A stretch of DNA of 34,197 bases from Aeropyrum sp. (lineage in GTDB: Archaea > Thermoproteota > Thermoprotei_A > Sulfolobales > Acidilobaceae): contig WANT01000014.1 of NCBI GenBank assembly GCA_015521685.1, positions 1-34,197 on the forward strand. Reading direction: 5' to 3'. The number at the start of each line of letters is the position of its first letter. The first letter of the stretch is position 1. The translations under genes were made by a program, and so were the position numbers. This document shows positions 1 to 18,626 of this stretch, one piece after another. Below the pieces are notes generated by a model that saw only the letters and a list, made by a program, of their open reading frames with translations, had not been told where the DNA came from and searched no databases.

Positions 1-1214
1 ACAGGGAGGAGGCCCCTCACGGTAGCCACGTAAGCTGCGAGCCGGGATGAGTAGGAGGACCTGTAGAGCCTTGCCTCCCTTATGGAGCTCCTCCTAACTA
101 TCACGAGGTCCTCGGGCCCCACCCTCCCCTCCATGAGGAGGGAGGAGGCCTTGTCTAGCACCCGGTGGGCCTCCATCAAGGCCTCCCCGAAGCTCTCGGG
201 CCTCTCGGCTTTGGCCAGCTCCATTATAGCCCTCCTCTGGGCTCGGGCCACGATGCGCGGCGTGTCCCTCCTGACAGCCATTACCCCCTTGACCTTTACC
301 CCCCCGTCCTCGAGGAGCCCGTAGTACTTGTTCCCAGCACCCACGCCGCCCAAGGTCCTCGGTATGTAGAGCCACCTGTAGACCGCCTCGACCTTGACCC
401 CTATCCCGGTCTCCCTCTCTATGAGCCGGGCCAGCTCTCCGGGGCTCGGGGCTTCCGAGCCGGCTGGCTGGACGAATATGCTGTCTACTATGGAGTGGAC
501 TATCCTGAACCCGGCCCTTCTGGCCGCTCGCTCAGCCTTCAGCAGCGTCCTCCTGGCTATGGCGGTCACGTTCTCGTAGGCTAGTATGCTGCCGAACAGG
601 CTATTCCTGAAGCCTAGGTAGCCGAAGCCAGACACTAGTATCCACTTCAGGGCCTCAGACCTCTCCCTCAAAACACCGCTTTGAGTATCGATAGCTGCGG
701 ATAGGGCCTTCTTTATGGCCGCCCTCCTCGAGACTAGCCCTCCGAGGACCTCGGCCACAACGCCACGCACGTCAGTGCATACGGGGTGGGCGCCCCCCTC
801 GGGCACCTCTGAGCGGCAGCCCCGCGCCCCCACAGTCTCGCCGGAGAGGTTGTGCCTGGCTATTATGGTGGGGTAGAGGCTGTGGAAGTCGAGCTGGAAG
901 ACCCTCCAGTACAGGCCTGACCTGGGAGTCCTGACCAGGCCGGCCCTATCCCAAGCCCTAACATCGCCGAGCCTCCTCCAACCCTCAAGCCTGGGGGCCC
1001 TCGGGTCTAGGGCCATCCTCCTCTCCAGGGCGCGCAGAGCCTCGGCTGAGGTCAGCACCCTCCCTATGCTGGCCTCTGCAGCCCTGGGTAGGGGTAGCCT
1101 GGAGATCCTGCTCCACTCAACCGCCCCGTGGAACCCTATAGGCACTCCTGGCTCTGGGACGAATAGCGCTCCTCCAACCAGCCTCCACCGCCTCCTGGCT
1201 GCTATGGCTCGCAT
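1..1214 (-). CDS. Catalytic part of a split B-family DNA polymerase (PolB2-like), cut by window edge
   Basis: The minus-strand frame opens only after a TGA at 1226 and starts at ATG 1214 (TTG 1217 also possible). It stays open to base 1, giving 404 visible codons. It holds the palm and fingers of a family B polymerase. Motif A is LDFHSLYPTII with Asp109. Motif B is KWILVSGFGY from Lys190, where the usual Asn is Val. Motif C reads VHSIVDSIFV, so the first Asp of the usual DTD is Ile242 and the second, Asp244, is kept. The KYYG motif that follows motif C in the family is present. The upstream segment EWSRISRLPLPRAAEASIG resembles PolB2 proteins. The N-terminal and exonuclease-like parts are missing here and lie on the opposite strand from 1377. 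By family it would extend or bypass DNA, perhaps in repair; activity is uncertain. The stop lies outside the window. Confidence 0.85.
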   Translation of the reverse strand, partial: MRAIAARRRWRLVGGALFVPEPGVPIGFHGAVEWSRISRLPLPRAAEASIGRVLTSAEALRALERRMALDPRAPRLEGWRRLGDVRAWDRAGLVRTPRSGLYWRVFQLDFHSLYPTIIARHNLSGETVGARGCRSEVPEGGAHPVCTDVRGVVAEVLGGLVSRRAAIKKALSAAIDTQSGVLRERSEALKWILVSGFGYLGFRNSLFGSILAYENVTAIARRTLLKAERAARRAGFRIVHSIVDSIFVQPAGSEAPSPGELARLIERETGIGVKVEAVYRWLYIPRTLGGVGAGNKYYGLLEDGGVKVKGVMAVRRDTPRIVARAQRRAIMELAKAERPESFGEALMEAHRVLDKASSLLMEGRVGPEDLVIVRRSSIREARLYRSSYSSRLAAYVATVRGLLP

Positions 1215-1290
1215 CAACCCGCCTCAGCCTCGCCTTAGAGATCCTAGTGTCTGGGGAGTGAGGCTTGAGGAGGCGGGAGGGGGTGGGCGC

Positions 1291-1300
1291 CGATAATATT
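1291..1300. promoter_or_regulatory. AT-rich island in the divergent promoter region of the split polymerase
   Basis: The 162-bp spacer between the two head-to-head starts (1214 and 1377) is G+C-rich apart from an island around ATAATATT. This could serve as a TATA element in either direction. It lies about 80 bases from each start codon, which would mean leaders of roughly 50 bases on both sides. The assignment rests on composition and position only. Confidence 0.3.
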
Positions 1301-1376
1301 TGGCTTTGTGGAAATACTCTCGCATCCCCCCGGGCCTTCCGGCTTCCATCATCAAGTAGCGTAGGGTTGGCTCGCC

Positions 1377-2039
1377 TTGTCGTTCGTACTAGACGCCCGC
1401 CCCTCTAGGGAGGGGGGCCTCGAGGTCCTCGCCTATGACGGCGTCTCCCTAGAGTCGAGGAGGCTGCCGGGCGTGCCGTTCAGGATCTACCTCAAGCCTC
1501 TAGGCTTGGATGCCCGCGTTCTAGAGCGGTCGATAGAGGATTCTGGCCTGGCTGAGGCTTGGATAGAGGAGTGGCTCTCGCCTCCGGATTACTCTAGGAG
1601 CGTGGAGCTCGTTGTGGCAGAGTCTAGGCACGCTGGCCAGCTCTCGAGGCTGGCCGCCAAGGCCGAGGAGGCTGGCGTGGCTTACAGGGTCAACACCTAC
1701 CCCGGGATGGTGGTGGAGGCTCTCCATAGGAGTGGGGTGTGGCCGGGGTATCGTGTGAGGCTCCGCAGCGATGGCGGCGAGGTCCTAGAAGACCCCTCAG
1801 ACCCCCTCTACGAGCCCCCAGACCTGCTGGTAGCCCGGCTAAGGGCCGTGTCGTGGCACGGGCCTGCGGTCTCTCTAGGCGAGAGGATCCGCGGCTTTCT
1901 GGTTGAGATTGGAGGGGAGGAGCTGGGTGTGCTCGACTACTGGGATGTTGTTGAGGCTATCGAGGCGTGGAGGCCCGCGGTGGTCATGGCTAGGCATTTA
2001 GACCTAATGCTCCTGGATAGGGCTGCGGGAGAGGGTTAG
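1377..2039 (+). CDS. N-terminal/exonuclease-like part of a split B-family DNA polymerase
   Basis: This 220-residue protein starts at TTG 1377; an in-frame TAG at 1362 rules out a longer form and no better start is near. Residues 1-140 resemble the N-terminal domain of family B polymerases (FVLDA, then YDGVSLESRRLPGVPFRIYL). Residues 145-215 follow the layout of the 3'-5' exonuclease domain but have lost its acidic residues. The strand that normally reads like SFDIE is SWHGP, and the later GYN-type motif reads ARHLD. It was probably once contiguous with the catalytic half on the other strand, since together the two give a complete PolB2-like layout. It may bind DNA or assemble with the catalytic chain (inference). 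Its stop overlaps the stop of the convergent ABM-domain gene. Confidence 0.7.
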   Translation: MSFVLDARPSREGGLEVLAYDGVSLESRRLPGVPFRIYLKPLGLDARVLERSIEDSGLAEAWIEEWLSPPDYSRSVELVVAESRHAGQLSRLAAKAEEAGVAYRVNTYPGMVVEALHRSGVWPGYRVRLRSDGGEVLEDPSDPLYEPPDLLVARLRAVSWHGPAVSLGERIRGFLVEIGGEELGVLDYWDVVEAIEAWRPAVVMARHLDLMLLDRAAGEG

Positions 2040-2359
2040 GAGGGTGTTTTGAAGTCTACGACCTCGAACTCTATGCCCTCTGAGCTCGTCCCTTCGAGCC
2101 TCCTACTCCTAGCCCTCTCGTGGGCCTTCTTGAACTCCTCGCTCTCGACCCAGGCCTCGAAGGCCTTCTTTGACTCCCACACGGTTATTACTAGGACCTC
2201 GCGGCGGTCGGGATTGGCGAGTATTAGGAGGGCTTTGAAGCCGGGCCTCCCCTCGACCAGCCCCCTCCTCGTCTTGAAGGACTCGACTACTTTCTGGAAC
2301 GCTTCTGGAGTCTCGGCCCTTATGTGGTTCATGATTGCGAATGTAGCGGGGGATTCCAC
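2036..2359 (-). CDS. Antibiotic biosynthesis monooxygenase (ABM) domain protein
   Basis: This small 107-residue ferredoxin-like-fold protein shows the ABM/heme-degrading monooxygenase pattern. A first strand FAIMNHI is followed by a helix with repeated Phe and Glu, then PGFKALLIL, then VLVITVWESKKAFEAWVES, where the Trp-Glu-Ser and following helix are typical. The C-terminal strand is IEFEVVDF. Members may be small oxygenases or heme-binding proteins, but many have no known substrate and none can be assigned here. The GTG start at 2359 has a GGTGG about 8 bases upstream; ATG 2332 would cut into the first strand. The stop codon overlaps that of the convergent polymerase fragment by two bases. 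Confidence 0.75.
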   Translation of the reverse strand: MESPATFAIMNHIRAETPEAFQKVVESFKTRRGLVEGRPGFKALLILANPDRREVLVITVWESKKAFEAWVESEEFKKAHERARSRRLEGTSSEGIEFEVVDFKTPS

Positions 2360-4615: not shown

Positions 4616-5125
4616 GTGTCCCAACAGGGGGAGCAACTAGTAAAGATAACTGTTAAGGTGAACGGTAGGACCTATACCCATGAAGTACCTCCCCGGATGC
4701 TTCTAGTGCACTATATCAGAGATGTACTAGGCCTCACAGGAACCCATGTAGGCTGTGACACGAGCAACTGTGGGGCATGCACGGTTATAATGAACGGGAA
4801 GGCTGTCAAATCCTGCACCCTCTTCGCCTTCATGGCCGACGGCGCGGAGATTATAACTGTAGAAGGGCTAGCAAGCAATGGCAAGCTCCATCCAATACAG
4901 GAGGGCTTTAGGGAGAACCACGGCCTCCAGTGCGGATTCTGCACTCCAGGCATGATCATGACTCTCTACGACTTCTTAAACAGGGTGAAGAGAAAGCCGT
5001 CGGAGGCCGAGGTCAGAAGAGCTATCGAAGGAAACCTTTGCAGGTGCACCGGCTACGTTAACATAGTGCGCTCCGCCCTCTGGGCGGCTGAGAGGATGTA
5101 TGGAGGTGGTGGAGGTGGCCGTTGA
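4616..5125 (+). CDS. coxS: Molybdenum hydroxylase small subunit, two [2Fe-2S] clusters
   Basis: This 169-residue iron-sulfur subunit of a xanthine oxidase/CO dehydrogenase-type enzyme passes electrons from the Mo site to FAD. The N-terminal plant-type ferredoxin domain carries Cys47, Cys52, Cys55 and Cys67 ([10 protein letters not shown]). The C-terminal helical domain carries the second cluster at Cys106, Cys109, Cys142 and Cys144 ([16 protein letters not shown]). Length is normal for the family. The start is GTG 4616, preceded by GGTGTGAT, which matches the archaeal SD consensus well. Its last codons encode a run of glycines, which coincides with two SD-like GGAGGTGG copies around the start of the large-subunit gene. 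That gene overlaps it by 26 bases. It is first in the coxSLM operon. Confidence 0.95.
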
Positions 5126-7469
5126 GACTCCCAAAAGGTACATCGGGAAGCCGGTCAAGAGGAAGGAGGACCTCAGGTTCATAACGGGCAAGGGACTCTA
5201 CGTAGACGACATCCACCTCCCGGGAATGCACTACGCTGCCTTCCTGAGAGCTAGCTATGCCCACGCACGCATTAAATCCATCGACACCAGTAAGGCTGAA
5301 AAGATTCCTGGAGTAGTCGGCGTCTTCACTGGAGAGTACTTCAGGGACAAGGTTGCGCCCCTCGGCACTGCCTGGGCCTTGACGAACGCAGACCTAAAGC
5401 CAGTCACCTGGCCTGTTGTCGCCTACGATAAGGTCAGGTTCACTGGCGACATAGTTGCGGTGGTAGTAGCCAAGGACCCATATATTGCGTACGATGCTCT
5501 AGATGCAATCGAGGTTGAGTACGAGCAGCTCCCAACAGTAGTCGACCCAGAGGAAGCTGTAAAGCCCGGAGCGCCGCAGCTCCACGACGAAGCGCCGAAC
5601 AACATAGCATTCACCTGGAGGTTCCAGGGTGGAGAGAGCTTCGAGGACCTCGAGCGGAAGGCAGACTTTGTGATCCGGAAGAGGCTGATAAACCAGAGGC
5701 TCATCCCCTCCGCTATGGAGCCCAGGGCTGCAGTAGCTGCCTACAACCCCGGCACCGAGGAGCTCACGGTTTGGGTTACTTCGCAGAACCCCCACGTCCA
5801 CAGGCTGATAATGGCTGGCTCTCTCGGCATACCAGAGCACAGGATCAGGGTTATAGCCCCGGATGTGGGCGGAGGGTTCGGCAGCAAGATACAGGTCTAC
5901 CCTGGAGAGGTGATCGTGTCCAGGCTGGCTATGGACCTTGGAGTCCCGGTTAAGTGGGTTGAGACGAGGAGGGAGAACTTCATAGGCACGATACACGGCA
6001 GGGATCACATAGACGATGTAGAGATCGCAGCGACCAACGACGGCAGGATCCTCGGGCTCAGGGTTAAGACTCTAGCCAACATGGGCGCATACCTGACAAC
6101 AGCCGCACCTGGCGTCCCCACAATACTCTTCGGCCTAATGCTCCAAGGCCCCTACAAGATAGCGGGCGTCGACGTGGAGGTCAAAGGCGTCCTCACAAAT
6201 ACAACACCCGTTGACGCATATAGAGGCGCTGGAAGGCCGGAGGCAACATACATCCTAGAGAGGGCGATGGACCTAGTCGCCCTAAGGCTAGGCATGGACC
6301 CGGCTGATGTCAGGAGGGTGAATCTACTAGATAAGGCTCCAGCAACAACAGTCACGGGCCTAATCTACGATAGCGGGGAGTATAAGAAGGTGTTCGAGAA
6401 GGCTCTCGAGATAGCAGAGTACAAGAAGTGGAGGGAGATCCAGGAGAAGGCCAGGAAGGAGGGGAGGCTCATAGGAATAGGCATATCAAGCTACATCGAG
6501 ATGTGCGGCCTAGCACCCTCCAGGATAGCTAGAGCCACGGGCTTCGGCCTAGGACTCTGGGAGAGCGTGCTGATAAGAGTCCACCCCACGGGCAAGGTGA
6601 GCGTATACGTAGGGAGTCACCCCCACGGCCAGGGCGAGGAGACAAGCTTCGCCCAGATCGTGGCAGACGAGCTAGGCGTCTCTATAGACGACGTGGAGAT
6701 AGTCCACGGAGACACGGACGAGACGCCCTTCGGAATGGGCACATACGGCAGCAGGACTACCCCCGTCGGCGGTGGCGCACTAGCGCTGGCCGCCAGAAGA
6801 ATAAAGAGAAAGGCCAGGAAGATCGCTGCAGCCCTCCTAGAGGCGAGAGAGGAGGATATAGTGGAGGGTGAGGGCAAGTTCTGGGTTAAAGGCAGCCCAG
6901 ACAAGGCAGTGACCTTCCAGGACGTCGCTCTCGCAGCCTATACTGCCGACAAGCTTCCGGACGACGTGGAGCCGGGCCTCGAGGCAACCGTGTTCTACGA
7001 CCCAGAGAACTTCGTGTTCCCCTACGGCACCCACGTCTGCATTGTGGAGATAGATCCGGAAACGTTTAAGCCCAAGATACTCAGGTACGTCGCCGTTGAC
7101 GACGCAGGAGTAATCATAAACCCACTCCTGGCCGAAGGCCAGGTGCATGGTGGTGTGGTGCAGGGCCTAGCCCAGGCGCTGTTCGAGGAGGCGGTGTTCG
7201 ACGAGAGGGGCAACCTGCTGACAGCTGGTTTCAATGACTACATGATCCCCACCGCGCTAGACGTCCCCAACATAGAGTCCTACTTCGAGCAGACCCCCTC
7301 ACCCCACAACCCGCTGGGAGCCAAAGGCATAGGAGAAACTGGTACAATAGCCTCGACGCCTGCCGTAGTGAATGCTATTATCGACGCACTAGCACACCTA
7401 GGTGTTGATCATATTGACATGCCTCTGACACCGTTCAAGATTTGGAAGGCTCTCAAAGGGAAGAAGTAG
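5100..7469 (+). CDS. coxL: Molybdenum hydroxylase large subunit (form II CoxL-like)
   Basis: The 789-residue catalytic subunit binds the molybdopterin cytosine dinucleotide-type cofactor. Molybdopterin-binding stretches are visible (GGGFGSK near residue 260, [10 protein letters not shown] near 515). The active-site loop reads AYRGAGR at residues 373-379, the form II signature. True CO dehydrogenases (form I) have AYxCSFR with a catalytic Cys, absent here. The catalytic Glu lies in GIGETGT (Glu746). The enzyme therefore hydroxylates an aldehyde, purine, N-heterocycle or similar substrate; CO is possible but not supported. Sulfolobus glyceraldehyde oxidoreductase is a comparable three-subunit enzyme. 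ATG 5100 overlaps coxS; GTG 5115, with GGAGGTGG about 5 bases upstream, is an equally plausible start. Confidence 0.93.
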
Positions 7470-7484
7470 TGGAGGTGGATGGGC

Positions 7485-8354
7485 ATGTATCCCCCTGAGT
7501 TCAAGGTCCTGGTACCCAGCAGTCTAGAGGAGGCTCTGAAGCTCCTCAAGGAGCATGGAGACAACGCTAAGATACTGGCTGGAGGACACAGCCTAATACC
7601 CATGATGAGGCTAAGGCTGGTAAAGCCAGAGGTAGTGATTTACCTCGGAAAGGTACCAGGCCTCCGGTACATCAGGGAGAACGGCTCCACGATAAAGATA
7701 GGTGCAATGACGACCCACGGCGAGATAGAGTCCTCCAGCCTACTCGCAGAGAAGAACCCACTCCTACAGGAGACTGCCTCGAAGATTGGAGACCTGCAGG
7801 TAAGGAACATGGGTACTATCGGAGGCAGCATAGCCCACGCAGACCCCGCGGCAGACTACCCAGCAGCCCTCACAGCTCTCGAGGCGACAGTAGTTCTGAA
7901 GAGCCTTGATGGAGAGAGGGAGGTAAAGGTCGATGAATTCATACAGGGGCCCTACTTCACAGATGCCCGCCCCGACGAGCTGCTGGTGGAAGTGAGAGTC
8001 CCCTCCCTGTCAGGGAGGTTCGGAACCGCCTACGAGAAACTCTACTTCAGGGCCACAGACTTCGCCATAGTAGGCGTAGCTGCATACGTGGAGGTTGATG
8101 GAGGCGCTTTCTCCAGGGTAAGAGTCGGGCTCACCGGGGTAGGCGATAAGCCTGTGAGGGCGAGGCAGGTTGAGGAGGAGCTAGTTGGTAGGGAGGCAAG
8201 CGAGGCTAGTATAGAGAAGGCTGCAGACCTAGCTTCCGAGGGTCTTGAGCCGCCGAGCGATGTGAGGGCTTCCAGCGAGTATAGGAAGAAGATGGCTGAG
8301 GTCCTCACGAAGAGGGCTCTAACACGGGCTCTATCAAAGGCCAAGGGAGGATGA
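7485..8354 (+). CDS. coxM: Molybdenum hydroxylase medium (FAD-binding) subunit
   Basis: This FAD subunit of the same enzyme (289 residues from ATG 7485) takes electrons from the iron-sulfur subunit and delivers them to the final acceptor. The two family FAD-binding motifs are present: AGGHSLIP near residue 33 and GTIGGSIAHADPAAD near residue 110. The C-terminal CO dehydrogenase flavoprotein domain follows (for example FRATDFAIVGVAAYVEVDG). The perfect SD GGAGGTGG at 7471-7478 is 6 bases before ATG 7485, whereas ATG 7479 would touch the SD. The gene lies 15 bases after coxL, completing the S-L-M order. A T-run follows at 8375. Confidence 0.94.
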   Translation: MYPPEFKVLVPSSLEEALKLLKEHGDNAKILAGGHSLIPMMRLRLVKPEVVIYLGKVPGLRYIRENGSTIKIGAMTTHGEIESSSLLAEKNPLLQETASKIGDLQVRNMGTIGGSIAHADPAADYPAALTALEATVVLKSLDGEREVKVDEFIQGPYFTDARPDELLVEVRVPSLSGRFGTAYEKLYFRATDFAIVGVAAYVEVDGGAFSRVRVGLTGVGDKPVRARQVEEELVGREASEASIEKAADLASEGLEPPSDVRASSEYRKKMAEVLTKRALTRALSKAKGG

Positions 8355-8374
8355 AATACTTCGAATCCAAAAAC

Positions 8375-8380
8375 TTTTTT
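8375..8380 (+). terminator. T-run terminator after coxM
   Basis: A run of six T followed by CCTCC lies about 20 bases past the coxM stop and before the coxD gene. Archaeal termination often uses such T-runs without a hairpin. It may separate the structural operon from the accessory genes, or only attenuate read-through. Confidence 0.4.
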
Positions 8381-8459
8381 CCTCCCCACCTGTAAAATCT
8401 CATTACCCCAGAGATAGGGCTCTGTGTCACCTCCTAGAAGAGTGGAGAGTGGATAGAGA

Positions 8460-9353
8460 TTGGAAAGCTGGGAGAGGTTTATCGAGGGCTTAACACCAGA
8501 GAAGCTGAGGGAACTCCTCCTAGCTAGAGGCTATATTCCCGGCGAGGACCTCGTTACTACCCTCTGGCTCGCCCTCAAGATGGGTAAGCCTTTACTGCTC
8601 GAAGGAGAGCCCGGGTGCGGAAAGACGGAGCTGGCCAAGGTCCTCGCTGAAGCTCTAGAAACAGAGTTGATCCGCCTGCAGTGCTATGAGGGAATTGAAG
8701 CCTCCCAGGCTCTCTACGATTGGGACTATCCGAAGCAACTACTAGCTATAAGGATGCTGGAGAGGACCTCAGACCCCCAATCCATCGAGAGGGAGATCTA
8801 TTCCGAGAAGTATCTGCTAAAAGGCCCCCTACTGCGCGCCGTATTACACGAGGGTCCTAGGCCTCCAGTTCTCTTGATAGACGAGATAGATAGAGCTGAC
8901 GAAGAGTTCGAAGCATTTCTCCTCGAGTTCCTAGCGGAGTTCCAGGTGACAATACCTGAGCTTGGGACTTTCAAGGCTAAGACTAGGCCTATAGTGATAA
9001 TCACCTCTAACAGGACAAGGGAGATAGGTGATGGGTTGAGAAGAAGGTGTCTATACCACTACGTCACCTATCCCCCGAAGGACAGGGAGATAGAGATAAT
9101 CGTGGCCAAGGTGAACGGTATTGAGAAGAAGCTAGCCGAACAAGTAGTCACAGCTGCCGGGAAACTGAGGTCTATGAAAAACATTATGAAAAAGCCTGGG
9201 GTCTCGGAGACTGTAGATTGGGCCAACGCCCTAAAGCTGTTAGGATATAAGGAGCTGAATGAAGAGGCTGTGGAGAGGACGCTCGCCTGCGTTATAAAGT
9301 CTGGTGAGGACCTCAGAACCGTTAGTCCAGATGACTTGGTGTCAAATGGATGA
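8460..9353 (+). CDS. coxD: MoxR-family AAA+ ATPase (CoxD-like)
   Basis: The 297-residue MoxR AAA+ ATPase has Walker A GEPGCGKT at 49-56, Walker B LLIDE at 138-142 and sensor 1 IVIITSNR. The arginine-rich segment that follows (GLRRRC) is typical of the family. In aerobic CO dehydrogenase clusters CoxD works with the VWA protein CoxE to mature the Mo centre, including sulfuration of the Cu/Mo site in form I enzymes; here it probably serves the form II enzyme next to it (inference). TTG 8460 is the first usable start and follows a purine-rich stretch. Its stop overlaps the coxE start in an ATGA, so the two are surely cotranscribed and probably translated in a coupled way. Confidence 0.92.
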   Translation: MESWERFIEGLTPEKLRELLLARGYIPGEDLVTTLWLALKMGKPLLLEGEPGCGKTELAKVLAEALETELIRLQCYEGIEASQALYDWDYPKQLLAIRMLERTSDPQSIEREIYSEKYLLKGPLLRAVLHEGPRPPVLLIDEIDRADEEFEAFLLEFLAEFQVTIPELGTFKAKTRPIVIITSNRTREIGDGLRRRCLYHYVTYPPKDREIEIIVAKVNGIEKKLAEQVVTAAGKLRSMKNIMKKPGVSETVDWANALKLLGYKELNEEAVERTLACVIKSGEDLRTVSPDDLVSNG

Positions 9354-10441
9354 CGGTTATACCGAGGCCAGATGAGCTGCCTAGGAGGATAGTGGAATTC
9401 GTTGACGCCCTGAGAAGGAATGGGATGAGAGTATCTACATCGGAAGCGATAGATGCAGCCCGGGCAGCGATGATAGCAAGCAGCCTAGACTTAGAGGTTT
9501 TTAGGCTATCACTTAGAGCCACTCTAGCTAAGAGAAGCGAGGACCTACTCCTCTTCGACGAGCTCTTCGCCAAATACTGGATGAACGTTACGCATTGGGA
9601 GCTTCCCAGGCCGAGAACCGCGGTTAGGATAGTTTATGATGAGCCGCCGGGAGACCCTGTAAGCCACTTCCTAGGCGTGTATAGCCCTCTCGATGTTTAT
9701 TGGGAGGGTTTGAGCATCGAAGAGCCGCATCCAGACGCCGTTAAGAGGTATAAGGTAGGGGTTAGAAGCCTAGTTAGGGCGGCTTCGCTTAAGGAGGGAA
9801 GGCGGAAGACCCGTTTGAAGAGTGGAGATATGGACTTCCGAAAGATAATGAAGAGAAGCCTGAAGGCCTTCGGAGAACCGTACTGGCTAGTCAAGAGTGG
9901 TAGGAGGAGAACCAAGTCGAGGCTGGTATTAGTGGCTGACGTGAGTAACTCTATGAAGGACTACTGGGTAGAGCTTTACGCCCTTTTATCGTCTCTAAAA
10001 AGCCTCCCCTCAGGCTCATACGAAGTTTTCCTATTCAGTACTAGGCTCTTCAGGGCTACAGAGATTCTGCAGTCCTCTAGAAGCGCCTTGGACTTCCTCA
10101 GGAGGACTCAAGAGCACGTCGGATTGTGGGGTAGTGGAACTAGGATAGGAGACTCTCTTGCAGTCCTGGCCGAGAGATATAGCGGAATATTGAGTAGTAG
10201 GGCTATACTTGTGATCGTGAGCGATGGCTGGGATCTCGGCGATCTCGACAAGCTAAGGGAAGTCCTCCGAGCCATTAGAAGGATGGTTGGATTAGTGATA
10301 TGGGTGGTCCCAGGCCGTGTTCCAGAGGCAGACCGGCCGGCTGGGCTAGATGTTGCTCTGGAGGAGTCTCACACCGTTATGACCTTGGAGTCGCTCAAAG
10401 ATCCTAGGCTCGTTAAAAGGGCTGTATATTTTGTGAAGTAG
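9350..10441 (+). CDS. coxE: VWA domain protein, CoxE-like
   Basis: The 363-residue protein has an N-terminal helical region (1-180) typical of the CoxE family and a C-terminal von Willebrand A domain. The metal-ion-dependent adhesion site is seen as DVSNS at 197-201, with the Thr-containing loop GSGTRIGDSL and the later Asp in IVSDGWDLGD. CoxE proteins pair with MoxR-type AAA+ ATPases as a chaperone-like module for maturation of the Mo enzyme. The ATG start sits in the ATGA overlap with coxD. No signal peptide is present, so it is cytoplasmic. Confidence 0.92.
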   Translation: MTVIPRPDELPRRIVEFVDALRRNGMRVSTSEAIDAARAAMIASSLDLEVFRLSLRATLAKRSEDLLLFDELFAKYWMNVTHWELPRPRTAVRIVYDEPPGDPVSHFLGVYSPLDVYWEGLSIEEPHPDAVKRYKVGVRSLVRAASLKEGRRKTRLKSGDMDFRKIMKRSLKAFGEPYWLVKSGRRRTKSRLVLVADVSNSMKDYWVELYALLSSLKSLPSGSYEVFLFSTRLFRATEILQSSRSALDFLRRTQEHVGLWGSGTRIGDSLAVLAERYSGILSSRAILVIVSDGWDLGDLDKLREVLRAIRRMVGLVIWVVPGRVPEADRPAGLDVALEESHTVMTLESLKDPRLVKRAVYFVK

Positions 10442-10508
10442 TGCCTGTCTGCGAGGGTTGTACTTGGTTTAATTCTAGACTTGGGGCTATATACGCTTTG
10501 CTTCAACG

Positions 10509-10520
10509 ATATATCAAAAA
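10509..10520 (+). promoter_or_regulatory. TATA-like element upstream of coxG
   Basis: ATATATCAAAAA lies about 30 bases before GTG 10544, so the transcript would start almost at the start codon. A second candidate, TATATAC at 10488-10494, is further upstream. If the first is used, the open frame upstream of it (from 10481) cannot be part of the protein. Confidence 0.42.
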
Positions 10521-10543
10521 CTAGATCTTTATCATGGGTGGGG

Positions 10544-10996
10544 GTGAAGGGTTTGGAGCTGAATTATAGTGGCTCGTTCACAGTATCAAAGAGTGTCGAG
10601 GAGGTTTTCGACTTTCTGTCTGACCCTGATAAGTTTGCTAGGTCCTTCCCGGGATTCAAGTCTGTGGAGCGGGAGAACGGGAGGTTCACCATCAACCTTA
10701 GGCTGAGCCTGGGGCCAATTAGGGGTGATGCTAGCGTTAGAGCTGAGTTTGAGGAGCTCGACCGGCCGAAATATGCTAGGGTGAGGGGTAGTGGGAGGGG
10801 TGCTGGTAGCACTCTAGATTTCACTCTAGAGTTCACGGTCAAGGCTGAGAATGGCTCCACAAAGGTTGAATGGGCCTTCAGTGGGTCTGTGGGGGGTTTG
10901 GCCGCCTCGATGGGTGGGAGGGTGCTGAATAGTTTGGCTAACAGAATGATCAATGATATAATTTCTGGCATCAAGAGGGAGTTAGAGTCTTCATAA
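10544..10996 (+). CDS. coxG: CoxG-like SRPBCC-fold protein
   Basis: A roughly 150-residue protein of the CoxG/SRPBCC (START-like) family. It shows the signature beginning SGSFTVSKSVEEVFDFLSDP, then FARSFPGF, a sheet-rich middle (RFTINLRLSLGPI) and a long C-terminal helix (GGRVLNSLANRMINDIISGI). In carboxydotrophs CoxG helps place the CO dehydrogenase at the membrane and is not essential for its catalysis. In this cluster it probably helps recruit the hydroxylase to the membrane-bound acceptor chain (inference). The open frame begins at 10481, but the family domain starts near residue 28 of that frame and a TATA element lies at 10509. GTG 10544 or TTG 10553 is therefore the likelier start. Confidence 0.85.
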   Translation: MKGLELNYSGSFTVSKSVEEVFDFLSDPDKFARSFPGFKSVERENGRFTINLRLSLGPIRGDASVRAEFEELDRPKYARVRGSGRGAGSTLDFTLEFTVKAENGSTKVEWAFSGSVGGLAASMGGRVLNSLANRMINDIISGIKRELESS

Positions 10997-11040
10997 GGAC
11001 TATAAATACGTCAGCTTTAAAACCTATCTACCAGAAGGCC

Positions 11041-11057
11041 TATATTTTAATTTTATA
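11041..11057 (+). promoter_or_regulatory. TATA-like AT-rich element upstream of xdhC
   Basis: The stretch TATATTTTAATTTTATA ends 16 bases before TTG 11074. This predicts a leaderless or nearly leaderless transcript and separate transcription of the XdhC-like gene. Confidence 0.5.
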
Positions 11058-11073
11058 GTGGGTTGGTTGAAGA

Positions 11074-11946
11074 TTGCCCGAGGTAAAGTACGATGAGAAC
11101 CTAGCTGAGTGGGTTGACCTAGTCAGAAACCTAATAGAGGAGGAGAGGGAATTCGTTATTGCTGTAGTTGTTAGCGTGAAAGGCTCTGCAGCGGCCAAGG
11201 TAGGGGCTAAGGGTGCTATACTCCCGGACGGGAGCGTCTTGGGGTGGCTCGGGGGCTGGTGTAGTGAGAACGCTATACTCCTTGCTGCTCTAGAAACTCT
11301 GAAGACGGGCAGGCCTAGGATCATAAAGCTTGTTATGGCTGGTAAAGAGCTTAGGCAGGTGTCCGAGGACGTAATCGAGGTTGGGACGCCGTGCGGTGGG
11401 GAGGTTATGCTTTACGTAGAGCCTGTCTACCCCAAACCCCAGGTTATAGCGTTCGGTCACAATAGGGTTGTCCGCGCTCTCGTCGATATCATGAAGATAC
11501 TCGGGTTCAAGACTGTAGTTGTCGATCCAGCCGCATCCAGAGAAGCGTATCCCAGTGCAGACAGCATAGTAACCAGCCTCGAAGACCTAGACAAGCTGAG
11601 GTGGGACAGACACACATATAGCGTGCTCGCGAGTATGGGCAGAACAGACATAGATCTCGAGGTGCTCCAAAAGATTCTAAGAAGAGAGCAGGCAGCAGTA
11701 TTTCTGGTCTCGAGTGTTAGAAGAGCCGACGAGATAATAAGGACACTTATTAGGAGGGGGTTCGGCGATGAGATCAATAAGATACAGACTCCCGCGGGCA
11801 TTGATCTCGCGGCTGTGACTCCCGAAGAGCTAGCCCTAAGTATTGCAGCAGGGATAGTAGCCAAGAGAAGGGGGGGTACAGGAAGGTTCTTGAACGAAGT
11901 TAAGGGAGACCCAGTCAAGAAGGCGGTCACTACTCTAGAGAGATAA
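11074..11946 (+). CDS. xdhC: XdhC/CoxF-family molybdenum cofactor insertion protein
   Basis: The 290-residue protein has an N-terminal XdhC domain (about 1-110) with VSVKGSAAAKVGAKGAILPD followed by GWLGGWCSENAI, which matches the conserved Gly-Gly-x-Cys loop. A C-terminal Rossmann-like domain begins with VIAFGHNRVVRAL. XdhC binds the sulfurated Mo cofactor and inserts it into the apo large subunit; CoxF and CoxI are its equivalents in CO dehydrogenase clusters. It is the last plus-strand gene of the cox region. TTG 11074 is the first start after an in-frame TGA at 11068, and the AT-rich element just upstream supports it. The convergent small gene ends 24 bases away. Confidence 0.9.
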   Translation: MPEVKYDENLAEWVDLVRNLIEEEREFVIAVVVSVKGSAAAKVGAKGAILPDGSVLGWLGGWCSENAILLAALETLKTGRPRIIKLVMAGKELRQVSEDVIEVGTPCGGEVMLYVEPVYPKPQVIAFGHNRVVRALVDIMKILGFKTVVVDPAASREAYPSADSIVTSLEDLDKLRWDRHTYSVLASMGRTDIDLEVLQKILRREQAAVFLVSSVRRADEIIRTLIRRGFGDEINKIQTPAGIDLAAVTPEELALSIAAGIVAKRRGGTGRFLNEVKGDPVKKAVTTLER

Positions 11947-11970: not shown

Positions 11971-12207
11971 TTAGACCTTCTTAACGACAACTCTGCCCTC
12001 TGAGGTCTCAACAACTTCGGCTATCCCTAGTTGTTGGAGCCTGTCGAGAGCCTCTATGAGCAAAGACTCCATTCCCTCGAAATCCGTTATAGCCACTTTA
12101 GCCCCTCTAGGCGTCTTTCGAAGATTTGTTAGGAGGGCTGCTATCACGCCTCCACAGCGCCTAGCCTCTTTACTCAGTGATATTGAGGCTTCCACAGCTG
12201 GCACCAT
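11971..12207 (-). CDS. Small protein of unknown function (78 residues)
   Basis: I do not recognise this gene. From ATG 12207 it would encode 78 residues, with GTG 12204 next to it; a purine run AGGGGG lies just upstream. The frame is open to 12321, but the extra N-terminal part has no typical protein character. The protein is helix-rich, with a basic-hydrophobic middle (RRCGGVIAALLTNLRKTPRG), an acidic amphipathic helix (EGMESLLIEALDRLQQLG) and a final strand pair (AEVVETSEGRVVVKKV). This could be a small alpha/beta or winged-helix-like fold, but that is a guess. It lies between the cox genes and the transsulfuration genes and is convergent to xdhC. Confidence 0.55.
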   Translation of the reverse strand: MVPAVEASISLSKEARRCGGVIAALLTNLRKTPRGAKVAITDFEGMESLLIEALDRLQQLGIAEVVETSEGRVVVKKV

Positions 12208-12349
12208 TAGCCCCCTATTGGATATGGCGTTCTCCGTCCAAAGAATATTGTTAACTTGTAGGGTGGTATAGGTTCTGCTATAGAGGGATGGGCTCGAGAT
12301 ATCATGCAGGGGTGATAGCATTCATGTTATTATTTTGACATTCTCAAAA

Positions 12350-12409: not shown

Positions 12410-13582
12410 GTGCAGGTAGACCCTCCTAAACCAGCCAACACTATCCTAGACCTAATCGGAAATACCCCCCTAGTCAGGCTGGCTAGGTTGGAGAAGCTAA
12501 CTGGAATTAAGAGCGAGGTCTACGCAAAGCTAGAGTACTATAATCCAGGAGGAAGCGTCAAGGATAGGATAGGGCTATACATGATAAGGGGTGCCGTATC
12601 TGAGGGTCTTGTTGATGAAGGAGGAGTTTTAATTGAGCCGACCTCAGGGAATACGGGCATTGGTTTGGCTCTAGCTGCTAAGGAGTATGGCCTCACAGTC
12701 GTGGCCGTCATGCCTACAAAGATGAGCTTCGAAAAGGAGGCTATCTTGAAGGCTCTCGGCGCTATTATAGTTAGGACACCCACATCCGTCTCTCCAGACG
12801 ATCCAATCTCATACTATAATGTAGCGAAGGTTCTAAGGAACTTGATTTGGTCTCTAGGTAGGCGGCCTTTCCGAGAGGATATAGAGAGGATCGTCTCGGT
12901 GGTTCAAGAATGGATTAGGAGCGAGGACAGAGCTTCCCTTCTGAAGGCGTTGGAAATGGATGTTAAGCCCACGCCATACGCTTACATACCCAACCAGTAC
13001 GAGAACAAGTATAACCCTCTGGCCCACGAGGAAACTACAGCGAGGGAACTCCTATCGCAGACTGGCGGCAGGCTAGACTATGTGTTCGCGGGTATGGGGA
13101 CTGGAGGAACTATTACAGGTATAGCAAGATACCTCAAGCCCCGCCTAGGTTCGAGGATTAAAATCGTAGGAGTAGATCCTGAAGGCTCCATCTTCCACCT
13201 TGTGAAGAAGGGAATGCCTGTCGCCGAGGCGCAGAAGCTGGCCCGGACCTACAAAGTTGAAGGTATTGGCGAGGACATCATCCCCGAAACGATAGATTTA
13301 AACTTGGTAGACGAAATAGTTGTCGTCGACGATGCTAGGGCATTCGCCATGGCCAGGCTCCTAGCAAGAGTAGAGGGCCTCCTGGCAGGCGGCTCCTCTG
13401 GAGCCGCCGTATACGCTGCGGTCAAGTATTTGAAGGAGAGGCGTGTTAGGGGGAAGAGGGCTGTTGTCATTCTACCAGATACTGGGAGGAACTACCTGAG
13501 CAAATTTTATGATGACGGCTGGATGGAGGAAAACGGCTTCTCCACTAGAGACGAGGAGGTGCTCTCCGACATCCTAGGGTGA
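12410..13582 (+). CDS. cbs: Cystathionine beta-synthase-type PLP enzyme with an internal insertion
   Basis: This fold-type II PLP enzyme of 390 residues joins serine (or an activated serine) to homocysteine, or to sulfide if it acts as a cysteine synthase. The PLP lysine is Lys51 in NPGGSVKDR. The loop EPTSGNTGIG (76-85), the glycine loop GTGGTITGIA and the serine loop LAGGSSGA are all visible. Details such as MSFEKEAILKALGAIIVRTP, YNPLAH and YKVEGIGEDIIPETIDL match cystathionine beta-synthase better than CysK. It lacks the heme and CBS-pair regulatory domains of animal enzymes. Residues about 143-188 form an insertion of roughly 40 residues not found in typical members. The GTG start follows a TATA box, and cgl overlaps its end. 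Confidence 0.88.
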   Translation: MQVDPPKPANTILDLIGNTPLVRLARLEKLTGIKSEVYAKLEYYNPGGSVKDRIGLYMIRGAVSEGLVDEGGVLIEPTSGNTGIGLALAAKEYGLTVVAVMPTKMSFEKEAILKALGAIIVRTPTSVSPDDPISYYNVAKVLRNLIWSLGRRPFREDIERIVSVVQEWIRSEDRASLLKALEMDVKPTPYAYIPNQYENKYNPLAHEETTARELLSQTGGRLDYVFAGMGTGGTITGIARYLKPRLGSRIKIVGVDPEGSIFHLVKKGMPVAEAQKLARTYKVEGIGEDIIPETIDLNLVDEIVVVDDARAFAMARLLARVEGLLAGGSSGAAVYAAVKYLKERRVRGKRAVVILPDTGRNYLSKFYDDGWMEENGFSTRDEEVLSDILG

Positions 13583-13590
13583 GGCTGCCT

Positions 13591-14754
13591 ATGAAAGGGG
13601 AGCGGACTAGGGCCATACATCTAGGAGAAGACCCGTTAGAGACACAGCACGGGGACATAGTACCTCCGATACACGTCGCTGTAACTTTTGCCAAGAAGAG
13701 CGTTAGAGATGTGGAGTCAGGCTATGTATACAGCAGGACCTCAAACCCTACAAGGGATGTTCTAGAGAGGAAGCTGGCCGGCCTCGAGAGGGGGAAGTGC
13801 GGTTTCGCCTTCTCTTCTGGGCTGGCCGCTGAGGCCACAATTTTACTATCAATCCTGAGAAGCGGGGATAAGATAGTTGCGTTGGACGACTTGTATGGCG
13901 GGACTAAAAGACTATTCAGAATCCTAGAAGGTAGGTTTGGGGTGAGGGTCAGATATGTAGACGCCACCAATCTCCACGCCTTAGAGAAGGCCGTAGGAGA
14001 AGGTGCTAGGATCGTGTGGATCGAGACTCCATCGAATCCCCTTCTCAAAATAGTAGATATTAGAGAGGCAGCTAGGATTGCCCACGAGAGCGGTGCCTTC
14101 CTAGTAGTTGATAATACATTCGCGACTCCGGTGTTCCAAAAACCTCTGACCTTAGGCGCTGATATCGTTATCCACAGTGCAACGAAGTATTTGTCAGGCC
14201 ACTCAGACATACTGGCCGGTGCAGCGGTTGCAGTAGAGGAAGAGCTATGTGAGGGGATCGGCTTCATGCAGAACGCTCTCGGCGCTGTTCTATCACCGCA
14301 CGACTCGTGGCTACTCCTAAGGAGTATAAAGACGCTGCCCGCTAGGATGCGGATTCACGAGAGTAACGCCAAGACTATAGCCGAGTGGCTTGAACGGGAT
14401 GATCGAGTTGAGAAGGTATACTATCCAGGGTTATCGTCGCACCCTGGCCATGATGTTGCTAGGAGGCAGATGGCTGGCTATAGCGGCATGGTGTCATTCG
14501 AGATAAAAGGTGGTCCTGAGGTTGCTGTAAGGTTTGTTGAGTCTCTTAGGCTATTCCATCTCGCGGAGAGCCTGGGAGGGGTGGAGTCCCTAGTGGAGAT
14601 ACCGAGCTTGATGACCCACGCATCAGTCCCTAGAGAGGAGAGGCTCAGGCTGGGCATTGGAGACTCTTTAATTAGAATGTCAGTAGGGATAGAGGATGTT
14701 GAGGACCTCATTAGCGATATTGAGACAGCTTTGAAGAGGGCTTTTGAACAGTGA
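13591..14754 (+). CDS. cgl: Cystathionine gamma-lyase/gamma-synthase family PLP enzyme
   Basis: This Cys/Met-metabolism PLP enzyme has 387 residues from ATG 13591. The PLP lysine is Lys199 in SATKYLSGHSD. The family segments YSRTSNPTRD, FSSGLAAEA, VWIETPSNPLLKI and VVDNTFATP are all present. Next to a cystathionine beta-synthase it most likely cleaves cystathionine to cysteine, 2-oxobutanoate and ammonia (reverse transsulfuration). Gamma-synthase, methionine gamma-lyase or O-acetylhomoserine sulfhydrylase cannot be excluded from sequence alone. GTG 13579 overlaps the cbs stop, but GGTGAGG at 13578-13584 sits 6 bases before ATG 13591, favouring the latter. Confidence 0.88.
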   Translation: MKGERTRAIHLGEDPLETQHGDIVPPIHVAVTFAKKSVRDVESGYVYSRTSNPTRDVLERKLAGLERGKCGFAFSSGLAAEATILLSILRSGDKIVALDDLYGGTKRLFRILEGRFGVRVRYVDATNLHALEKAVGEGARIVWIETPSNPLLKIVDIREAARIAHESGAFLVVDNTFATPVFQKPLTLGADIVIHSATKYLSGHSDILAGAAVAVEEELCEGIGFMQNALGAVLSPHDSWLLLRSIKTLPARMRIHESNAKTIAEWLERDDRVEKVYYPGLSSHPGHDVARRQMAGYSGMVSFEIKGGPEVAVRFVESLRLFHLAESLGGVESLVEIPSLMTHASVPREERLRLGIGDSLIRMSVGIEDVEDLISDIETALKRAFEQ

Positions 14755-14761
14755 TGTTTTG

Positions 14762-14770
14762 ATTTTATAC
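14762..14770 (+). promoter_or_regulatory. TATA-like element upstream of the tryptophanase-type gene
   Basis: ATTTTATAC follows the cgl stop by a few bases within a T-rich stretch that may also terminate cgl transcripts. It lies about 34 bases before ATG 14800, so a short-leader transcript starting near 14793 is predicted. This argues against the TTG at 14773. Confidence 0.42.
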
Positions 14771-14799
14771 TATTGAATACTGGGACTTTAGTTATAAAT

Positions 14800-16212
14800 A
14801 TGTTTTTATCGCCGCCTTATCATCGCCCTACACACCTCCATCCATTAGGTGTAGAGGTCTTGGAGCCTCCCGTAGAGCCCTATAGAGTCAAATCAGTAGA
14901 ACCAATAAAGCTGCTATCCCGCGAAGAGCGGCTCACACGCCTTAGGAAGGCGTGGTGGAATGTTTTCCGTCTTCGCAGCGAAGACGTGTTTATTGATTTA
15001 CTCACAGATAGTGGCACTGGGGCGATGAGTTCACGCCAGTGGGCGGCCTTGATGCTGGGCGACGAGTCATACGCAGGATCGTCCAGCTACTATAAGTTCG
15101 AGGAGGCGGTCCGCAAATTCACTGGGATGGACTTTGTGCTCCCGACCCACCAAGGGAGAGCTGCTGAGAGGATACTATACACTACTCTAGTAGAACTATC
15201 ACAATCCAAGGTAGTCCCCGCCAATAGCCACTTCGACACAGGGAGAGCTGTACTACTAAACATAGGCGCTCAACCCATAGATATGCCAGTCAAGCATGCA
15301 TTAGATCCGGAGGATGAACACCCGTTTAAGGGCAACATTGACCTAGACAGGCTCGAGGCTACTCTTAAGAGGGGGAATGTAGCGTTTGTCCTACTCGTGT
15401 TGACGAACAACGCGGTCGGAGGCCACCCGGTCCACCCAGAGAATGTTAGGGAGGCCGCCAGGCTATCTAGGGAGCATGGAGTACCCCTAGTCCTTGACAT
15501 ATGCAGGATAGCCGAGAACTCGTATCTAGTCAAGAGGAGGGATCCAAGATACGCAGGGCGAAGCGTGTTTGATATAGTTAGGGAGACACTGTCTCATGCT
15601 GACCACGCTATTATGAGTGCGAAGAAGGATGGCCTCTCTAATATTGGTGGCTTTATTGCAACAAGCGACTCGGAAGTCTACGAGCATTTGGCCGCAAGGG
15701 TCGTGCTAGAGGAGGGGTTTATAACATACGGGGGCCTTGCTGGAAGGGACCTAGAAGCCATAGCCGAGGGGCTAACGGAAGCTCTAGACGAGAACTATCT
15801 TTACCATAGGATCAGCCAGGTGGAATATCTTGCAGACCTACTGGAAGGCAATGGAGTACCTGTGGTAAAGCCTCCTGGTGGGCATGCGGTATACGTCGAT
15901 GCGTCGAGGCTGCTACCTCACATTCCCAGAGAGCAGTTTCCCGCGGATAGCCTAGCCGCACACCTGTACATAGAGTCGGGCGTTAGGGCCGTTGGCCTAG
16001 GATACCTGGCTTTCGAGGACAAAGAGAAGCCGGAGCTACTAAGACTGGCAATACCCAGGAGGACCTACACGTCTTCCCACCTAAGGTGGGTCGCTGAGGG
16101 CCTCGCCAGGATAGCTGCCAAGCCCTATAAAGTAGTAGGGCTACGGCTTGTCTGGGAGCCTAAGGTTAAGGGTGTGAGGCACTTTCTAGCCAAACTAGCT
16201 CCAGCTGGGTAG
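14800..16212 (+). CDS. tnaA: Tryptophanase-type beta-eliminating lyase
   Basis: This 470-residue fold-type I PLP lyase is of the tryptophanase/tyrosine phenol-lyase family. It shows GDESYAGSSSYYKFE with the conserved Tyr, the phosphate-binding PTHQGRAAE, and LDICRIAEN with Asp and Arg around PLP. MSAKKDGLSNIGG carries the PLP lysine (Lys276 from ATG 14800), and PRRTYTSSHL closes the family pattern. The position that is Arg in tyrosine phenol-lyase (MERG) appears as Leu (VGLG). This resembles the hydrophobic residue of tryptophanase, so indole, pyruvate and ammonia from tryptophan are the likelier products (inference from remembered sequences). The frame opens earlier at TTG 14773, but a TATA element sits there. 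Confidence 0.85.
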   Translation: MFLSPPYHRPTHLHPLGVEVLEPPVEPYRVKSVEPIKLLSREERLTRLRKAWWNVFRLRSEDVFIDLLTDSGTGAMSSRQWAALMLGDESYAGSSSYYKFEEAVRKFTGMDFVLPTHQGRAAERILYTTLVELSQSKVVPANSHFDTGRAVLLNIGAQPIDMPVKHALDPEDEHPFKGNIDLDRLEATLKRGNVAFVLLVLTNNAVGGHPVHPENVREAARLSREHGVPLVLDICRIAENSYLVKRRDPRYAGRSVFDIVRETLSHADHAIMSAKKDGLSNIGGFIATSDSEVYEHLAARVVLEEGFITYGGLAGRDLEAIAEGLTEALDENYLYHRISQVEYLADLLEGNGVPVVKPPGGHAVYVDASRLLPHIPREQFPADSLAAHLYIESGVRAVGLGYLAFEDKEKPELLRLAIPRRTYTSSHLRWVAEGLARIAAKPYKVVGLRLVWEPKVKGVRHFLAKLAPAG

Positions 16213-16261
16213 GCGATGCAAACACTAACCTACCCCTATAACCCCTAGGAAGTCCCTTGGA

Positions 16262-17740
16262 ATGGACGGGTGTACTGGGCTGGCCGGGCCTGAGGACCTG
16301 AGATCCTATCTTGATTTCTTGGAGTCAAGAGGGCTTCTTAAGCGGGTCAAGGCCGAGGTAGATCCTGTCCTAGAGATCCCTGAAATATTGAGGCGGATCA
16401 TGTATAGGCGTCTCGGAGCTGTTCTCTTTGAAAACGTTAAGGGACACCCCGGGTATAGAGTCGCTGGTAATATATTCTGCGACATAGAGGTTGTAAGGAA
16501 AGCTCTAGGTGTTGAGAGGCTGGAGGATATCGGCTGGAGGCTCTTCGAGCCGTTACGAGGACCTCCTCCACTAGGCCTGGGTGAAAAGGTTAGGAGCCTC
16601 AAAGACGTGTTGACCATGGGCAAATACATGCCACGCAGGGCTGGGAGAGCCAAGTTCACCGAGAACGTTTTAGAAGGCAGTGAGGCAAGCCTCACAAAGT
16701 TGCCAGCTTTCAAGGTTTGGCCTAAAGACGGTGGTAGGTACCTGACCTACGCTTTAGTCCATGTTAGGGACCCAGTCGAGGGCGTGATGAACATGGGGGT
16801 CTATAGGGTTATGATTGCTGGTGATAGGGAGGGAGTCGTCCACTGGCAAATACACAAGAGGGGTATGCAGGCGGAGCAGGATGCGAGGGAGAAGGGGGAG
16901 AATAGGGTTCCAGCTGCTCTTGTTATTGGCAGCGATCCGGGAACCCTCTTGACGGGTGCTATGCCAGTACCTTACCCCATAGATAAACATCTATTCGCGG
17001 GAGTTGTTAGGGGTAGTGGTCTCCCTGTTTATCGTCTGCCTAATGGTGTCGATGTGCCTGCTAACGCTGAGATCGTGCTCGAGGGGTATATAGATCTCGA
17101 GGACCTCAGGCAGGAAGGGCCCTACGGAGACCATTTCGGATACTATGACAGGCCTAACAGGCTCTTCCCGACCTTCAGACTCGAGAGGATATGGCATAGG
17201 AGCGACCCAATATATTATGGGAGCGTTACTGGCAAGCCTCCTCTTGAGGATGTTGTGATAGGCAAGTTCGCTGAGAGGATATTCCTCCCTGCGATACAGA
17301 CGCTCCTCCCGGAGGTTGTGGACCTACATCTGCCCCCACATGGAGTATTCCAGGGTATGGCTTTCGTTTCCATTAAGAAGAGGTATCCTGGTCACGGTAA
17401 GAAGGTTCTGCTGGCTCTCATGGGGCTTGGCCAGCTTAGCCTAACTAAGATTCTCGTTGTTGTGGACCGAGATATAGATGTCCAGGATATAAACCAGGTT
17501 ATATGGGCGGTGTCCAGCCACGTAGACCCCCAAAGAGATGTCCTAGTCGTACCTTATAGCCACGCCGACGAGCTGGATCCCTCGACACCCACACCAAGGT
17601 ATGGTAGCAAGCTAGGAATAGACGCCACTAGAAAGCTGCCAGAAGAATATGGTGGGAAAGAGTGGCCTGAAGAGGTGGAGCCCGACCCAGCTGTGGCGGA
17701 AATGGTTGAGCGGCGGTGGAGAGAGTATGGCCTACCCTAG
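16262..17740 (+). CDS. ubiD: UbiD-family decarboxylase
   Basis: The 492-residue UbiD-type decarboxylase depends on prenylated FMN supplied by a UbiX partner, which is not in this window. Visible family parts are ENVKGHPGYRVAGNIF near residue 60, the cofactor/metal region MNMGVYRVM with HWQIHKRG, and the catalytic stretch EGPYGDHFGYYDRP with its acidic residues. The C-terminal domain has GHGKKVLLALMG and VVVDRDIDVQD. Its gene overlaps a UbiA prenyltransferase gene by 14 bases. That pairing suggests menaquinone synthesis by the futalosine route (MqnL with MqnP). An alternative is the archaeal anhydromevalonate-phosphate decarboxylase of isoprenoid synthesis, also a UbiD protein described from archaea. 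The two cannot be told apart here. Confidence 0.9.
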   Translation: MDGCTGLAGPEDLRSYLDFLESRGLLKRVKAEVDPVLEIPEILRRIMYRRLGAVLFENVKGHPGYRVAGNIFCDIEVVRKALGVERLEDIGWRLFEPLRGPPPLGLGEKVRSLKDVLTMGKYMPRRAGRAKFTENVLEGSEASLTKLPAFKVWPKDGGRYLTYALVHVRDPVEGVMNMGVYRVMIAGDREGVVHWQIHKRGMQAEQDAREKGENRVPAALVIGSDPGTLLTGAMPVPYPIDKHLFAGVVRGSGLPVYRLPNGVDVPANAEIVLEGYIDLEDLRQEGPYGDHFGYYDRPNRLFPTFRLERIWHRSDPIYYGSVTGKPPLEDVVIGKFAERIFLPAIQTLLPEVVDLHLPPHGVFQGMAFVSIKKRYPGHGKKVLLALMGLGQLSLTKILVVVDRDIDVQDINQVIWAVSSHVDPQRDVLVVPYSHADELDPSTPTPRYGSKLGIDATRKLPEEYGGKEWPEEVEPDPAVAEMVERRWREYGLP

Positions 17741-18626
17741 GTGGGATCCAGGCAAGCTTTCCAGGGCGGGCAACAAGATTGAAGCCTTCTCGAGGCTATT
17801 AAGGATAGAGCACACGCTTTTTAGCCTACCCTTCGCTTACGCAGGCGCTATTCTCTCTGGCTACCCCTTCACAGCACTCGACGCCCTATGGATGGCGACT
17901 GCCGTCCTTGGGCTTAGGACTGCGGCTATGGCCTACAACAATATCGCAGACCTGGATATAGATAGACTAAACCCTAGGACGGCTTCAAGACCCCTCGTTG
18001 TGGGAGCCGTCAGCCTTAGGGAGGCATGGAGCCTTGTCCTAGGGGGCTCGCTCCTCTACTTCATATCGGCAGCAATGCTGAATATCTACGCCCTCCTACT
18101 GTCGCCGATAGTGTTGGCGGTAGCAATCACGTACCCTCACGCGAAGAGGATACACCCACTGCCCCACATCCACCTTGGCCTCTCTCTAGGAGCGGTAGTT
18201 TTCGGCGGTGCTGTAGCGGCTTCAGGTGACGAGGCGGCTGGCTTGGGAGAGGTGCTTGTCAGTGTGCCCTGGCTACTTGTGGCTGCAGTCATCCTTTGGG
18301 TTGCAGGGTTCGACACGATATATAGCATAATGGATGCTGACTTCGACCAGAAGTATGGCTTAAGGAGCATACCAGCATTCCTAGGGCCTAGGTTATCGAG
18401 GCTGGCCTCGGTTGCCATGCATACTATTACGTCAATCCTTCTAATTCTGCTAGCCAGAGTTTACGGTTTCGGCATTCTCGGCTGGACTGCCGTGATAGTT
18501 TCAATAATCCTTATGGCTGTTGAGCATGTCCTCGTTTGGAGAGGCATGCTTAGAGAGGCGTTCAACACTAATCTAGCTATTGCCCTCCTATTATCACTGG
18601 GAATCATCGCCGACTACACGATCTAG
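17727..18626 (+). CDS. ubiA: UbiA-family prenyltransferase (4-hydroxybenzoate polyprenyltransferase-like, MqnP-like)
   Basis: This integral membrane prenyltransferase of 299 residues has about eight or nine hydrophobic helices. The two aspartate-rich Mg-prenyl diphosphate motifs are NNIADLDID at 71-79 and DADFD at 203-207. The beginning RIEHTLFSLPFAYAGA and FDTIYSIMDADFDQKYGLRS match the bacterial-type 4-hydroxybenzoate/MqnP branch better than archaeal lipid GGGP-type enzymes. It probably attaches an isoprenoid tail to an aromatic acid that UbiD then decarboxylates (inference). ATG 17727 lies 14 bases before the ubiD stop with GGTGGAG just upstream; the open frame from 17649 would overlap ubiD much further and is unlikely. 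Confidence 0.88.
   Translation: MAYPRWDPGKLSRAGNKIEAFSRLLRIEHTLFSLPFAYAGAILSGYPFTALDALWMATAVLGLRTAAMAYNNIADLDIDRLNPRTASRPLVVGAVSLREAWSLVLGGSLLYFISAAMLNIYALLLSPIVLAVAITYPHAKRIHPLPHIHLGLSLGAVVFGGAVAASGDEAAGLGEVLVSVPWLLVAAVILWVAGFDTIYSIMDADFDQKYGLRSIPAFLGPRLSRLASVAMHTITSILLILLARVYGFGILGWTAVIVSIILMAVEHVLVWRGMLREAFNTNLAIALLLSLGIIADYTI

Follow-up and report, generated by a model that had tools for sequence, protein, structure and literature searches.

PolB2 (Dpo2) is a B-family DNA polymerase of archaea that bypasses DNA damage, represented by Dpo2 of S. islandicus and PolB2 of A. pernix, in which the polymerase is made as one chain. It is normally accompanied by two partners, the RadA-like iRadA and PPB2 (PMC11791011, PMC4104785). 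The exonuclease part of PolB2 is generally decayed (PMC11791011, PMC8764526), and the enzyme is non-essential in S. islandicus, which survives its deletion (PMC8100216). The published survey of PolB2 left out truncated sequences (PMC11791011), so split cases may have escaped notice.

B-family polymerases divided between two genes have been described elsewhere in the archaea. The PolB3 of Methanobacteriales is encoded in two genes with no splicing signals (Kelman et al. 1999, as cited in PMC4104785); it belongs to another family, is thought to have arisen from faulty intein excision and is not described as a head-to-head pair produced by local inversion. In Nanoarchaeum equitans, two genes also specify one B-family polymerase (Choi et al. 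2006, as cited in PMC4104785). There, a split intein joins the halves, whereas the Aeropyrum pair described here has no intein sequence.

The window analysed here is the whole 34,197-nt contig of a draft MAG (1.44 Mb, 68 contigs), apparently of the hot-environment archaeon Aeropyrum, and its base 1 is a contig end. It carries a PolB2 that resembles the described enzymes in the sequence and predicted fold of both halves, in motifs A and C, in the D(R) motif, in the iRadA-binding loop and in belonging to a genome that also encodes iRadA and PPB2. It differs from them in that it consists of two divergent genes and lies outside the iRadA-PPB2 operon. The locus is thus a variant of a known polymerase and not a new kind of system. 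The best reading of it is a lineage-specific gene fission by inversion; function as a two-chain enzyme is regarded as probable but unproven.

Two divergent genes for one polymerase

Instead of a single polypeptide, PolB2 appears as two open frames on opposite strands, arranged head to head, and this layout is real in the assembly. The catalytic, C-terminal half (3–1217, minus strand), starting at a TTG at 1217 or an ATG at 1214, comprises the last part of the N-terminal region, the iRadA-binding loop with the D(R) motif, and the palm, fingers and thumb. Since the contig ends at base 1, about 35–40 C-terminal residues of this half are missing. The N-terminal half (1377–2039, plus strand) encodes 220 aa between a TTG start and a TAG stop and comprises the N-terminal domain and the decayed exonuclease domain. 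The divergent starts are separated by an intergenic spacer (1218–1376, GC 0.61) of 159 bp from TTG to TTG, or 162 bp if measured from the ATG at 1214. The sequence-only reading had described two divergent genes with the latter spacing and a TGA just upstream of the catalytic start, and both observations hold: an in-frame TGA occupies 1224–1226, two codons before the TTG. A GAGG motif stands 4 bases ahead of the same TTG. Chance openness of the frames is excluded, as nucleotide shuffles gave about 12 stops in the C frame and about 6 in the N frame.

The identification as PolB2, also proposed from the sequence, was borne out by a Pfam DNA_pol_B match of the catalytic half (PF00136, E 4.6e-23) and by the match of both halves, in order, to the same single PolB2 frame in relatives. 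The catalytic half is 57% identical to the single 628-aa PolB2 frame of one relative (G007). It groups with PolB2, being 42–57% identical to the PolB2s of the family vs about 30% to the two other PolBs of its own genome, and a PolB2 profile search yielded 553 bits vs 173 and 132 for those two. Invariant columns are retained. In alignment with relatives, motif A (DxxSLYP) is kept as DFHSLYP, and motif C is reduced to VDS (SIVDS) with loss of the first Asp of DxD, as in most PolB2. The D(K/R) motif and the iRadA-binding loop are present, with D90-R91 at the motif and D90 invariant.

The structural models agree with this assignment. For the catalytic half, AF2 gave a pLDDT of 87.3, the best PDB matches were the KOD and 9N polymerases, and the new N-terminus is predicted to be a disordered tail of 23 residues. 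Its residue 33 aligns with residues 331–333 of Thermococcales PolBs, positions that we take to lie just past the exonuclease domain. The N-terminal half had no match in the Pfam scan; its AF2 model (pLDDT 94.3) matches N-terminal/exonuclease regions of B-family polymerases in the PDB, as befits the N-terminal and decayed exonuclease domains of a PolB2, and the predicted fold ends just past a helix. Because each half is predicted to fold confidently alone, each is a plausible independent chain.

Unsplit relatives, junctions and the assembly

In all 12 relatives examined closely, both parts lie in one same-strand frame of 625–748 aa. An order-level survey of 214 genomes found the N-terminal half in 60, and the frame that holds it spans 543 aa or more in all but the window and one genome (G154). 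That exception was rejected as a split PolB2, as it is a same-strand frameshift and not a head-to-head pair; the frameshift is single, lies in the palm-entry region on a low-coverage MAG contig (C94, locus L141, coverage 2.97) and is probably a sequencing error. Among 398 genomes drawn from across the phylum, the short PolB2 frames examined were contig-edge truncations (G260, G357, G413, G428 and G514) or, in G537, what seems to be a same-strand interruption of the palm region. A scan of three genomes of the same genus and one of the same family did not find the split DNA, which is expected because no PolB2 was found in these four. A search for the same divergent pair in relatives, suggested by the sequence-only reading, thus returned no other genome: the pair was seen in none of the roughly 60 PolB2s of the order and none of the 80 named loci, and the head-to-head split is so far unique to this lineage.

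Both halves break at one variable linker, which connects the decayed exonuclease region to the helices entering the palm. Residue 218 of the N-terminal half and residue 16 of the catalytic half coincide at one residue of G007, with no appreciable loss or duplication. Such near-lossless abutment fits a conservative inversion of about 0.8 kb, whereas independent truncation of two copies would not produce it. With the gene contiguous in relatives, an inversion, already put forward as the simplest history, is therefore the most economical one. The left breakpoint would lie at approximately 1215–1240, judging from the alignment to intact PolB2 and the TGA, where the catalytic half was joined to the upstream region of the N-terminal half. 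The right one would lie, by alignment, at approximately 2025–2045, where the N-terminal half was joined to the 3' end of a gene for an ABM-domain (antibiotic biosynthesis monooxygenase-like) protein (2036–2359, minus strand; PF03992, E 2.2e-13). The stop codons of these two genes overlap. An ABM orthologue with 70% identity occurs elsewhere in one relative (G003), and the homology reaches about residue 104 of 107. Undoing the inversion places the ABM gene, a spacer of about 160 bp with a promoter, and polB2 on one strand, which is an ordinary arrangement. The ABM gene would accordingly have sat upstream of polB2 originally; this predicted ABM-polB2 order was found in no other genome.

The spacer contains two further elements. 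Its sole long A/T run, the 9-nt ATAATATTT (1293–1301), is centred on the midpoint (1297) of both TTG starts and is a candidate bidirectional TATA element; shuffling the spacer yields 9 or more A/T in a row with a probability of 0.014. This run is the one feature that suggests the shared promoter proposed earlier. An imperfect 60-bp hairpin, CCCGCCTC...GAGGCGGG (1218–1277; DNA folding z = -2.8 on the plus strand), abuts the catalytic start, where the left breakpoint probably lies, and could have favoured breakage. No inverted repeats longer than 6 bp were found between the breakpoint regions, and no recombinase or invertase among those window proteins scanned with Pfam; within that scope, neither the inverted repeats at the ends nor the nearby recombinase of a programmed invertible segment was found. 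Pfam detected no intein domain in either half, and the halves stop at the linker without extra sequence.

The composition of the region was considered as a sign of foreign origin. Positions 1–2036 have a GC content of 0.636 vs about 0.54 genome-wide, which is extreme for this genome. However, polB2 is richer in GC than its flanks in 6 of 6 relatives measured (0.647–0.661 vs 0.57–0.585 in Aeropyrum; 0.661 vs 0.568 in G005), and the tetranucleotide profile of 1–2036 matches the host (91st percentile). Contamination at the contig end was rejected as unlikely on these grounds. The high GC of polB2 appears as a gene-specific composition bias.

The living genome might still hold a contiguous polB2, the layout being an inverted chimera made by the assembler near the contig end. 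The split is known from one MAG, a draft in 68 contigs, with no second genome showing the same layout, and the break falls no more than 2.04 kb from the contig end, which itself cuts the gene. Such a chimera would, however, require two clean junctions (catalytic half to spacer, N-terminal half to ABM gene) without appreciable loss, at breakpoints that offer no inverted repeat above 6 bp to mislead an assembler. The genome yielded no further copy of either half or of the C-terminal tail cut off by the contig end, and the composition is native. Furthermore, the iRadA-PPB2 site independently lacks polB2, which indicates that the rearrangement of the locus is real. We consider an assembly origin improbable. 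Contiguous relatives together with a misassembled window had been named as grounds for abandoning the two-gene account; the relatives are contiguous, but misassembly was not demonstrated.

The iRadA-PPB2 operon without polB2

In the A. pernix/camini-like genomes G005 and G003, the gene order is iRadA, PPB2 and polB2, followed by a convergent cluster homologous to positions 5067–11946 of the window. In the window, polB2 is gone from behind iRadA-PPB2 and is found across that cluster. The iRadA homologue (21902–22576, minus strand), named by position and sequence following PMC11791011, is intact, and its homologues adjoin PolB2 in most relatives. PPB2, an arCOG07300-like small helical protein (21684–21938, minus strand), is also intact, with a TTG start, a GGAGGTG upstream and the (M)GRT motif described in PMC11791011. 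The two genes lie about 20 kb from polB2, so that the usual, although not universal, operon arrangement is absent.

The place that polB2 takes in A. pernix/camini-like genomes is occupied here by about 9 kb (12410–21154) of genes for PLP enzymes, UbiD/UbiA-like proteins and an NMT1-type ABC transporter, flanked by a small minus-strand gene (11971–12321) and by PPB2/iRadA. A small ORF (21287–21556, minus strand), DsrE-like by eye only, lies downstream of PPB2 where polB2 would be expected. In both genomes of one genus (G030:C100 and G073:C12), iRadA and PolB2 are found on separate contigs; the present genome is therefore not alone in having a loosened operon.

In the tree of iRadA alone, the window protein falls outside the Aeropyrum/G034 clade, matching the position of PolB2, and the polymerase and iRadA may therefore share a history. 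Relatives without PolB2 (G001, G002, G004 and G006) are also without iRadA. As the two are absent together, the presence of iRadA here is weak evidence that PolB2 works.

Constraint on the halves and their possible fate

The reading that we favour begins with a single polB2 that first parted from the iRadA-PPB2 operon. The piece carrying the promoter region and the N-terminal half, about 0.8 kb long (about 1220–2036), would then have flipped where it stood. One breakpoint would fall in the variable linker that joins exonuclease and palm, the other immediately upstream of polB2, and two divergent genes would have been left. Both half-genes would most likely still be expressed from the common spacer, and their chains would come together again along the natural contact of the N-terminal/exonuclease block with the palm. 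A two-chain PolB2 of this kind may still act with iRadA and PPB2 in translesion synthesis. To this whole scenario, from operon separation to retained function, we assign a probability of roughly 0.4.

Codon usage scores 0.75–0.79 in frame vs 0.53–0.63 out of frame for both halves, and the in-frame values are like those of the neighbours. The nearest homologue has a protein identity of 57% for the catalytic half and about 40% for the N-terminal half. Relative-rate and private-change tests were used in place of pairwise dN/dS because saturation of synonymous sites is to be expected. The N-terminal half has no private changes at columns that do not vary among all other sequences, and the catalytic half has two mild ones, as does G007. 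Relative-rate tests against G007 with four outgroups showed no significant excess in either half; the N-versus-C contrast gave p = 0.04 with one of the four. On a fixed topology, the N-half tip measures 1.18 vs 0.69 for G007 (1.7 times longer), with an N/C ratio within the range of other lineages. Open frames, codon bias and conserved residues are signs of coding constraint and may reflect the selection on both halves that was suggested earlier, but a recent break would look identical, so that the intact frames may equally reflect a recent event.

A real inversion may thus have broken a dispensable gene, leaving a young pseudogene pair that does not yet carry stops. Near-lossless breakpoints suit a young event, the N-terminal half is slightly fast on the tree, and the gene has left its damage-inducible operon; moreover, PolB2 has been lost repeatedly in the genus (G001, G002 and G004 lack it) and is non-essential in S. 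islandicus (PMC8100216). Such inactivation has to be reconciled with about 625 codons free of stops and frameshifts, with the conserved residues and codon bias of both halves, with intact iRadA and PPB2, and with a usable start, preceded by GAGG, at the new end of the catalytic half. It is nevertheless a distinct possibility: PolB2 is dispensable and the break may be recent, and the facts therefore fit a recent knock-out almost as well as a two-chain polymerase.

A further option is that the catalytic half alone works with iRadA and PPB2 as a minimal PolB2, while the N-terminal half is a dying relic. The iRadA-binding loop and the D(R) motif (as defined in PMC11791011) do reside in the catalytic half, decay of the exonuclease part is common to PolB2 enzymes generally, and the mean column identity across the family is 35% for the N-terminal half vs 52% for the catalytic half. 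The N-terminal half nonetheless retains its open frame, codon bias and conserved residues without a significant rate excess, and we regard this option as very unlikely.

Were the split a recent knock-out or an assembly error, it would be commonplace for a dispensable gene. Under the favoured reading of gene fission by inversion, the locus could be, as we suggest tentatively, the first two-chain PolB2, split at the exonuclease-palm boundary, served by one promoter region and reassembled within the iRadA/PPB2 mutasome. Should both chains be made, PolB2 would tolerate splitting exactly between its decayed exonuclease block and the palm, and the pair would offer a natural two-piece system for the remaining role of the decayed exonuclease domain and for how iRadA and PPB2 hold the mutasome together.
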